Below, piece by piece: positions 56,146 to 64,000 of a DNA stretch of 64,000 nt; position 1 is the stretch's first letter, and the number at the start of each line of letters is the position of its first letter. The stretch is taken from contig QZJZ01000092.1 of assembly GCA_003599815.1 (NCBI GenBank), positions 1 through 64,000 of the forward strand, given 5' to 3'. Source of the stretch: Candidatus Auribacter fodinae (GTDB lineage: Bacteria; Auribacterota; Auribacteria; Auribacterales; Auribacteraceae). Under the pieces are notes generated by a model. That model did not search any database, was not told the DNA's origin, and saw only the letters and a list, made by a program, of their open reading frames with translations. The translations under genes and the position numbers were made by a program.

Positions 56146-59100
56146 ATGCATAATAGTATCAGGAACACCATTGCTGCAAGCATATTCCTGATTATTTCTA
56201 CTACATACAGCTTATGTTCAGCACAGAATACTGAGAAAAAGCTGTCTATTGAGCCGGAACTGCTGGGTTCCGCTGGTAGTATTGATTCTGAATTCACCGG
56301 AACCTCCGATAAACATATTGTTTTCATCAAAGACGCTCACTGCAACCTGAACGCCCAGCAAAACAGCATTCGCCTGATTCAAACTCTAATAGATCAATAT
56401 GGTTTCTCACTGGTATGTATGGAGGGAAGCGCCAGTGCGCTCTCGATACCCGCTCTCAAAGAATATCCAATGAAAGACATGCTCCAAAACGTAGCTTATT
56501 ATTATTTTAAAAACAGCCATATAAATGGCGCTGAATATTTATCAATCACAAAACCTAATGAGGTTTTTGTTGAGGGAATAGAGACAAAAAAACTCTATGC
56601 CAATAATTACTATGCCTTTTACAAGTCAATGTCTTTTCGTGACAAAGCAATTGAGAAACTTTCGCTGATTACTGAGTTCCTTGATAAGGTAAAGCCGCAC
56701 TATTATTCTGAAATGCTCATGAAAATTGACCGTGAATACAACAGTTACATAACAGGCAATTCAAGTTTTATTGATTTTATCGCATTTCTTATTTCTGTGT
56801 GCCCTGATCGCAATAAGTTGGAGAATTACCCTGCTCTATACGAGTACCAGCAAGCATCAGCTTTGCGAACAATGTTTTCTTCCACGCAAGCTGAAACAGA
56901 GCAAACAGAGGTTCTTGATATTATTATGCAATACGCTGATGATCAGGATAAAGCAGAACTTATAAGGTATACATTCCAGACCACTTCATCCCCCGTATTT
57001 GCTTCATTCATTAAACGCACCGCAGATAAATACCTGATAGAACTTGATGAATACCCGAATTTGACAAATTGTATGAAGTATATTGAACGGATACACGCGA
57101 TTAACGAAACATCTCTGCTCGACGAATTGGATACCTTTGTACTAGAAATCAAGCAAAGTTATTACGTAAACGAAAAAGAACAAGAAATCGATCAACTATC
57201 AAACAACTGTGCACTTCTGCGTGAAGCATGCACACTCTCTCTTGCATCATATAAAGCGTCAACCATCTCTACAATCAAGAACTCCTGCAATCCTGAAAAC
57301 ATTATCGGTTTATGTCAGGCACTCGCAAGGGATACCCAAACAGTATTGCCTTTTACTCTGGCAGATATGGACTTTATCGCAACAACACTAAATTTTGTAG
57401 TGGAATTCTACACATTGGCAGAACAACGCAATAACGCAATGTTTACCAACACATTAAACAAATTAGAAAAGTATGGGACAGACCGCTGTATCATATACGC
57501 AGGCGGATTTCATGCTCAGGGAATCTGTGAGGAACTTCGCAGGAATAACATTTCATACACCCTGATCTCTCCAGGCATAGCTCAATTCGATGACGAGTCT
57601 GGATATATTTCTCGCTTAACTGACTCGAAAAACATTTTTCAGTACTATCTTCAATCAACAACTCCGGGTATGCTCGCTGTTGCGTCAAAGCTGGTGGAAC
57701 CTGCCGATGCGCTCATTGATCCGACAGGCACCCAAGCATTTCTCGACCAGATCAAAACAGTTTTAACGACAGCAGGGTTACGCAGTGCATTGTATGATAC
57801 AGACCGAACTGCCTATGAATCTCTTTCCGTATTAGATGACAACCAGCTCGCCTTAATCTCAGATCGTATACAAACCATTCTGCGCTGGAAAAATACGTAC
57901 TTTGAAGATCTAGCGAATCTTATGCTGAGAAAAAACTATATGAGCGGTTATGACCTACAGTTTGATCTTAAAGGAGAATGCTTTTTTATCAATAATATCA
58001 TCTCTCCGCAAAAATCTGATATCACGGAATCGCAAGCTACACAGCACCTTTTATCCATAGAACTGCCGGACGGCCCACTAACAATAACAAACCTGCCAAC
58101 AAACAGTGTACAGATCTCTTTTGCAGGAAAGCCATTTAATGAATCCGCATTTGTTACCGCGCTTCGTCCGTTTCTTGTTGAACAGGTGATTCCCGAAGCT
58201 GAGTTTTTACAAGATCTAAAATATATCACGACGCATCATCGGGAATTACTCGATTTCCTGCGCAAAAATAATTTCATATCTTTTGATCAAGTTAAAGGTT
58301 ATACACTGAATCCACAACGAGCCTCCGTTATACGCACAGCACTTCGCTTCGTTGCCGACTCCGAAAACTGGCGGGTTACACAGCGTATGGCATTAACCGA
58401 TATACCCGAGTCATTTGCCGAGCTACTGGATAAACACGCTATTTCTTCAATTGAATTACCACCGGATATGGGAATCCCAGCATTATTATTCATGCTTGAA
58501 TCTCTGCCATCACAATTTTCTCAGTCCGCACGGTTTCCGTTTAATGAATCCGCATCATACATTTTTGAAAAACAACCTGTGCTTGGCGGTGCCCAATTCA
58601 AACTGAGCGTTCGCATCGAAAATATCGGTGAAATAGCCCGGATAGAAAAAGAACGGGCATTATTGCTTGGGTCGCAATATGAGGAAATTATTCACCGCCA
58701 GCTATTCGGCCCATTGCCTTCTACTACAGCAAGCATGCTTATAAGCGAAACAGCAACACACCAATTTTTCAGTGCAGGCGAAACAGAGAACGCATCTTTA
58801 CTTGTATGGGCAAATCCAGAAAACGCGGCTGTATTCTGGAACGAAATTAATCACAGCTCACTCCATTTCGATCCCGATACATTTGCCGCAACTGGCGGTT
58901 TACTGTTTGGGCAACAGGTTGGCGGTTCCTATGTTGTCAGTGATATTGTACCGTTGCCCTCTTCATCATACATTCAGGGAGATGACGCGTCATTTACTAT
59001 TAATCCCGCATCTATCAAACAACTGGCAAATCTTTACGCTACCGGGTCAACCGTTCTGCTGGGTGTATACCGAAATATGTCACCACTAGTTATGAACCAA

Positions 59101-64000: not shown

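Follow-up and report, generated by a model that had tools for sequence, protein, structure and literature searches.

A giant open reading frame of Candidatus Auribacter fodinae and a probable family of exported proteins with a common leader and cysteine-depleted cargo

What kind of protein a bacterium would export through a frame of several thousand codons is the question raised at the end of the DNA analysed here, a stretch of 64,000 nucleotides (hereafter the window) from contig QZJZ01000092.1 of Candidatus Auribacter fodinae. An open reading frame (ORF) begins with an ATG at position 56146 of the forward strand and continues stop-free to position 63999, over 2,618 codons, running off the window. 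The frame is a real gene, and it probably belongs to a large family of exported proteins specific to this lineage, in which a common N-terminal leader domain is followed by a long cargo almost devoid of cysteine.

The initial annotation, made from the sequence of the window, had regarded the frame as a true gene that leaves the window, and both points were upheld. A frame of this length has a chance of approximately 10^-71 at the same base composition, the G+C content is unequal over the three codon positions (0.51/0.34/0.38), and complete orthologs of 3,117 and ca. 3,123 residues were identified in two other genera (JAGGZS010000090.1 and JAHDNF010000008.1), collinear with the window protein over the whole chain at 38% identity. 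A chance ORF was thus rejected, and an assembly artefact was ruled out, as the orthologs come from two independent projects; a search with the three full-length orthologs as a profile returned the same two relatives and nothing further. On its contig (C10, 64,422 bases) the frame stays open to the final base, 422 bases past the window, and reaches 2,759 codons. The missing 3′ part was located at the end of contig C20 with a profile from the C-termini of the two orthologs: the ends of C10 and C20 have an exact 12-base overlap which keeps the frame, and the C20 part is homologous to the ortholog ends. Overlap and homology make a strong case for a join, not closed by reads, that would give a gene of 3,046 codons. 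A stop just past position 64000, together with a whole-chain match to a known family, had been named as grounds for doubt; the stop was found about 1,285 bases on, and no family covers the chain. The whole-chain Pfam search gave nothing meaningful, a Sigma54_AID match (E 0.05) being due to chance, and returned none of the immunoglobulin, cadherin or polyketide synthase domains whose absence had been claimed. As for the start signals, the ribosome binding site and the signal peptide stood, the N-terminus following the typical signal peptide pattern (MHNSIRNTIAASIFLIISTTYSLCSA). The promoter-like sequence is close to consensus, but with three sigma-70-like sites found versus 2.5 expected in shuffled sequences it is not above the chance count.

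The frame had been presented as a single oddity, a view which did not survive a search with the window protein: about 38 further matches were obtained in the same genome, nearly all limited to residues ~40–510, and each leader match stands at the N-terminal end of a further long frame, of 831 to 11,517 residues. The family amounts to approximately 108,700 residues, or 9.2% of the assembly. All 38 members of this genome start with a positive or neutral charge followed by a hydrophobic stretch. Within the phylum, the leader domain was found in nine of 44 genomes, with 2 to 37 matches each, and was absent from the other 35 at an E-value of 1e-5; neither was it found in plasmids nor among 291 genomes from a single further phylum, although blanks of this type are weak evidence. 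A stand-alone version is present as a 523-amino-acid frame in genome G006.

In an alignment of 50 leader sequences (leader numbering; adding 26 gives the full-chain residue), H39, Q45, G118, R402, G427 and H430 were invariant, and D37 and E67 were conserved in at least 90%. The 38 copies of the genome all contain the D-x-H...Q motif, and 37 of them GG[FYL]H. The AlphaFold model of the leader reached a pLDDT of 90.8, and its five best Foldseek matches in PDB were all erythromycin-esterase-like (E 0.025–0.09), with HopBA1 at rank 10 and ChaN at rank 37. Compared with 26 ChaN proteins, the leader profile gave a P-value of 1.9e-5 with GGFH aligned to the ChaN GxxH, when unrelated profiles gave 0.4. 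Pfam ChaN (PF04187) matched six of the 50 members, all below the cut-off (best E 0.0032) and the window member not among them. NCBIfam returned nothing meaningful for the leader, and comparison of its profile with PDB sequences produced helical-repeat noise only (calmodulin, troponin). We conclude that the leader is an uncatalogued branch of the EreA/ChaN/TIKI superfamily (erythromycin esterase, ChaN, HopBA1, TIKI), and the TIKI-like domain of the initial annotation was thereby supported. The leader is like this superfamily in its predicted fold, the acidic-x-His motif and GxxH, and differs from it by a long helical insert, scores below the Pfam threshold, and fusion to a giant cargo. Judged from the conserved motifs and the model, it is probably an active enzyme, a putative hydrolase of the periplasm.

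Behind the leader, the cysteine content falls abruptly. In the 38 members of the genome, cysteine makes up 1.10% of the leader and 0.072% of the cargo (51 of 70,508 residues; cargo median zero), compared with 1.83% in cytosolic-like and 1.09% in signal-peptide-like control ORFs of the same loci (Mann-Whitney p 5e-16 and 8e-16 for cargo versus controls). The drop occurs within approximately 50 residues of GGFH and is maintained over thousands of residues; beyond position +150, cysteine is wholly absent from 21 of 37 members. All other amino acids are present in the cargo at 0.73–1.36 times the control. The codons TGT and TGC are rare in the coding frame only (0.07%, versus 3.6–4.8% in the other frames), and mutational loss of TGY was accordingly rejected. 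Because the loss is confined to the coding frame, and the leader of the same chain keeps its cysteine, it is read as protein-level selection specific to the cargo. Cargo cysteine is low also in the orthologs and in five other genera, although less strictly (0.03–0.35% for long frames).

It is proposed that the cargo was purged of cysteine because it must pass a channel, or work outside, without disulfides. Disulfide-stabilised segments hamper the export of autotransporter passengers (PMC5802855), and by analogy we infer that the cargo would leave the periplasm. The cysteine result thus supports secretion of the cargo, while it says nothing on the job of the cargo. Conversely, the N-terminus could be an anchor of a cytoplasmic or membrane-bound protein with the cargo inside, cysteine having been lost through, e.g., reactive sulfur or metal stress. 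ATP-dependent and DNA-binding cargoes (see below) would suit such a place, but a positive charge ahead of the hydrophobic stretch predicts an outside location of the cargo, the leader keeps cysteine within the same chain, and the other proteins of the genome stand at 1.1–1.8% cysteine, which argues against a genome-wide pressure; we consider this location very improbable.

Pfam domains identified in the paralog cargoes include glutamine synthetase in three copies (E 2.5e-274), SecA, many copies of CheR, sigma-70 regions 2–4, protein kinases with HEAT repeats, CofD, ARMT1, glutamine amidotransferase, signal peptidase II, methyltransferases, glycosyltransferases, GNAT, metallophosphatase and ABC ATPase. 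Six glutamine synthetase copies are present in the corresponding member of genome G001, and at least three in that of G002; apart from these, the two genomes yielded no close glutamine synthetase, only a distant one of 712–714 amino acids. The DGSS, E212/E220, H269 and E357/R359 motifs are retained in all of nine copies from two genera; two arginine motifs were unmatched in some copies under strict patterns. The six cysteines of the glutamine synthetase member are all in the leader, whereas several are present in the genome's stand-alone enzyme. Both kinase copies retain K, D-x-K-x-x-N and DFG, and the SecA and ABC cargoes retain the Walker A sequence. With sliding windows, an internal duplication was detected in about half of the members. 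These duplications, and the catalytic residues lost in the window protein, would be expected if the enzyme folds were building blocks of a coat or fibre on the cell surface in which catalysis is largely irrelevant, and a giant extracellular coat has been proposed for Velamenicoccus (PMC10066038). Such a structural role is nevertheless unlikely, as catalytic motifs are retained by the copies of both glutamine synthetase and kinase, the former despite an identity of 33–36% to the stand-alone enzyme of the own genome.

Several loci of the family are recorded separately. Internal tandem duplications of very recent appearance (E 1e-120 and below) are present in L042 (residues 1728–2215) and L074 (residues 733–1420). 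In L079 (G000:C17:28001-48000), a 6,666-residue stretch of the 11,517-residue frame contains a single cysteine and some ten hydrophobic segments, with no Pfam match. An 803-amino-acid signal-peptide-like protein adjoining a leader-cargo gene (L065, 16860–19271) is without the leader motif and is cysteine-free past residue 30. Frames of 24,620 (G001:C22, L104–L106) and 13,907 amino acids (G012:C52, first part of L111) were discounted, since masked N runs leave six frames open and inflate the lengths.

In the cargo of the window protein, peptidase-like domains were found as the initial annotation had claimed. The best Foldseek match of the MPN region, in a low-confidence model, was an Rpn11 homolog (E 1e-4), followed by CSN, eIF3f and BRCC36. 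Its JAMM site (H-x-H...S..D) is lost, reading R-N-M-S-P in the window protein and R-N-H-S-P in the orthologs. In this it is like the MPN-minus subunits Rpn8, CSN6 and eIF3f, which have an MPN fold but no longer the JAMM histidines; unlike them, it sits inside an exported bacterial protein, where it is possibly a binding or scaffold part. The HEKTH motif (residue 2191; HEKTH or HEKAH) is conserved across all three genera, and its module is one half of an internal duplication (residues 1334–1525 and 2124–2313) whose first copy is without HExxH. The remark that several of the enzyme-like folds were apparently inactivated applies to two of the four candidate sites, i.e. MPN and one HExxH copy; the other two keep HExxH and may, by prediction, be active zinc peptidases. 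No stand-alone source of the cargo modules was found in nine genomes, except for a stretch related to that with HEWNH, present twice in one G006 frame.

According to the mechanism proposed, the signal peptide would carry the chain through the inner membrane, the EreA/ChaN/TIKI-type domain of ca. 480 residues would act as a periplasmic hydrolase, and everything behind it would be cysteine-purged cargo, leaving through a channel or working outside. The cargoes would grow through internal duplication and divergence, that of the window protein being a putative peptidase-type assembly with an inactive MPN domain, two HExxH sites and one decayed copy. The window protein would then most likely serve as a peptidase, secreted or held at the surface, with other cells or sibling proteins as its targets; a role in contact, predation or self-processing is speculative.

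For the family as a whole we suggest, tentatively, an undescribed arsenal, in which the leader exports dozens of giant, cysteine-free, duplicated housekeeping enzymes that would be delivered into other cells or act on them, altering metabolism and gene expression. That these form a set of effectors entering the cytoplasm of prey or host, where ATP, S-adenosylmethionine and RNA polymerase are at hand, with the window protein as the peptidase among them, is doubtful. The cargo enzymes are of cytoplasmic type with catalytic motifs largely kept, the loss of cysteine suits a route through an oxidising space, and the constant front with a variable back recalls effector families. On the other hand, no target organism is known, and in three family genomes (G000–G002) neither VipB, of the type VI secretion system sheath, nor VirB4, of the type IV system, was found, so delivery into other cells would be without a known machine here; type I, III and IX secretion systems were not part of this search. 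Glutamine synthetase arrays are, to our knowledge, without precedent among effectors.

Several observations weigh against the proposed export of the cargo and a peptidase role of the window protein. ATP-dependent enzymes are among the paralog cargoes, and outside a cell their substrate would be lacking. Neither a partner in the outer membrane nor a dedicated secretion system was identified, and the neighbours that recur resemble generic sensors and ABC transporters. The export signal was judged by simple hydropathy, without a signal-peptide predictor. The Foldseek E-values for the leader are weak, perhaps due to the long helical insert. The cargo model (residues 870–1610, AlphaFold from three sequences) has a low-confidence pLDDT of 52, and the MPN match alone was used from it. 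Moreover, the peptidase modules had no Pfam or PDB sequence match, and the third zinc ligand of the HExxH sites was not identified.

Giant ORFs have been described in Omnitrophota and related PVC lineages (PMC10066038, PMC12057145), and giant-protein mosaics with peptidases, methylases and signalling domains have been reported, of unclear function and with predation proposed (eLife 2025, PMC12419801). As far as the accessible parts of these reports go, their proteins are like the present ones in great length, uncultured hosts and mosaics containing peptidases or methylases, and no common EreA/ChaN-type leader or cysteine-free cargo is mentioned; the window gene, at 9.1 kb, is below the 20 kb from which giant ORFs of Omnitrophota were counted, when several of its paralogs exceed this length. 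Autotransporters and two-partner secreted proteins share the signal peptide and a long cysteine-poor passenger, but the present family differs in its enzyme-like leader with cysteines, a cargo of cytoplasmic enzymes, and the lack of a match to a two-partner secretion domain or a C-terminal beta-barrel (for the latter, neither complete ortholog gave a Pfam match). Polymorphic toxins and effector families (Rhs, CDI) likewise combine a constant exported N-terminal part with a variable C-terminal part. Unlike in these, the cargo consists of domains of housekeeping type and can run to thousands of residues, and VipB and VirB4 were not found. Among neighbouring ORFs of 250 amino acids or more, no immunity gene was recognised beside the family genes and no small neighbour recurred. 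Thus, giant proteins of uncultured bacteria are already known, and for the combination of this leader with cysteine-free cargo we found no described counterpart, nor a description of either part, in the open-licence literature.

Table 1. Features of the window gene, its surroundings and selected paralogs (window coordinates unless a locus is given).
Feature	Coordinates	Strand	Basis or remark
Giant gene	56146..64000, continuing to predicted stop 65284-65286	+	contigs C10 and C20
Sigma-70-like promoter TTTACA-17-TATAAT with extended -10	56030..56058	+	11/12 matches
Ribosome binding site GGGAGA, 6 nt 5′ of ATG	56134..56139	+	sequence
Signal peptide, residues 1-26	56146..56223	+	sequence; pattern common to 38 paralogs
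Leader domain, residues 27-510, EreA/ChaN/TIKI-type fold, normal cysteine content	56224..57675	+	model, alignment
Leader motif D63-x-H65-x5-Q71, E93 downstream	56332..56358	+	H, Q invariant in 50 sequences
Leader motif GGFH, residues 453-456	57502..57513	+	conservation, ChaN profile alignment
Cysteine-free cargo, last Cys at residue 612	57982..64000	+	none in next 2,147 contig residues, nor in C20 part
MPN/JAMM-like domain, residues ~885-1060, catalytic H-x-H replaced	58798..59325	+	Foldseek, ortholog alignment
Region with HEWNH, residues 1179-1183	59413..60045	+	HExxH kept in three genera; related stretch in G006
Degenerate copy of HEKTH module, residues 1334-1525, QRTH for HExxH	60145..60720	+	duplication E 7e-24
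Metallopeptidase-like module, residues 2124-2313, HEKTH at 62716-62730	62515..63084	+	motif, duplication
Start of C-terminal part common to paralogs on contigs C21 and C5	63319..64000	+	sequence comparison
Two divergent genes, 234 and 705 amino acids	53144..55974	-	position kept in G001 ortholog locus
Three glutamine synthetase copies, one chain	L054 (G000:C26:1-20000), frame 4791-13106		most active-site motifs kept, array almost cysteine-free
Six glutamine synthetase copies, one chain	L118 (G001:C19), frame 5744-19024		most active-site motifs kept, array almost cysteine-free
Sigma-70 regions behind signal peptide and leader	L049 (C60), L058 (C102), L046 (C1)		regions 2, 3, 4 in L049 and L058; region 4 in L046
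Two tRNA genes in tandem	12634-12818	-	

The larger of the two divergent neighbours was, by eye, patatin-like with an N-terminal cyclic-nucleotide-type domain. Downstream on C20, the window gene is followed by an LspA-like gene and then EF-G (also named by eye), and the ortholog genes of both genomes have transporter-like genes and EF-G on their 3′ side.

Giant proteins of uncultured bacteria are a puzzle, having few recognisable domains and no common handle. The leader domain offers such a handle, which marks dozens of giant proteins per genome, and the cysteine boundary is sharp and countable, making the step strong and testable evidence on the destination of the cargo. Intact glutamine synthetase and kinase copies in exported chains present a paradox, these being ATP enzymes; if the cargo does reach other cells, it would be a new way to act on a partner or prey.
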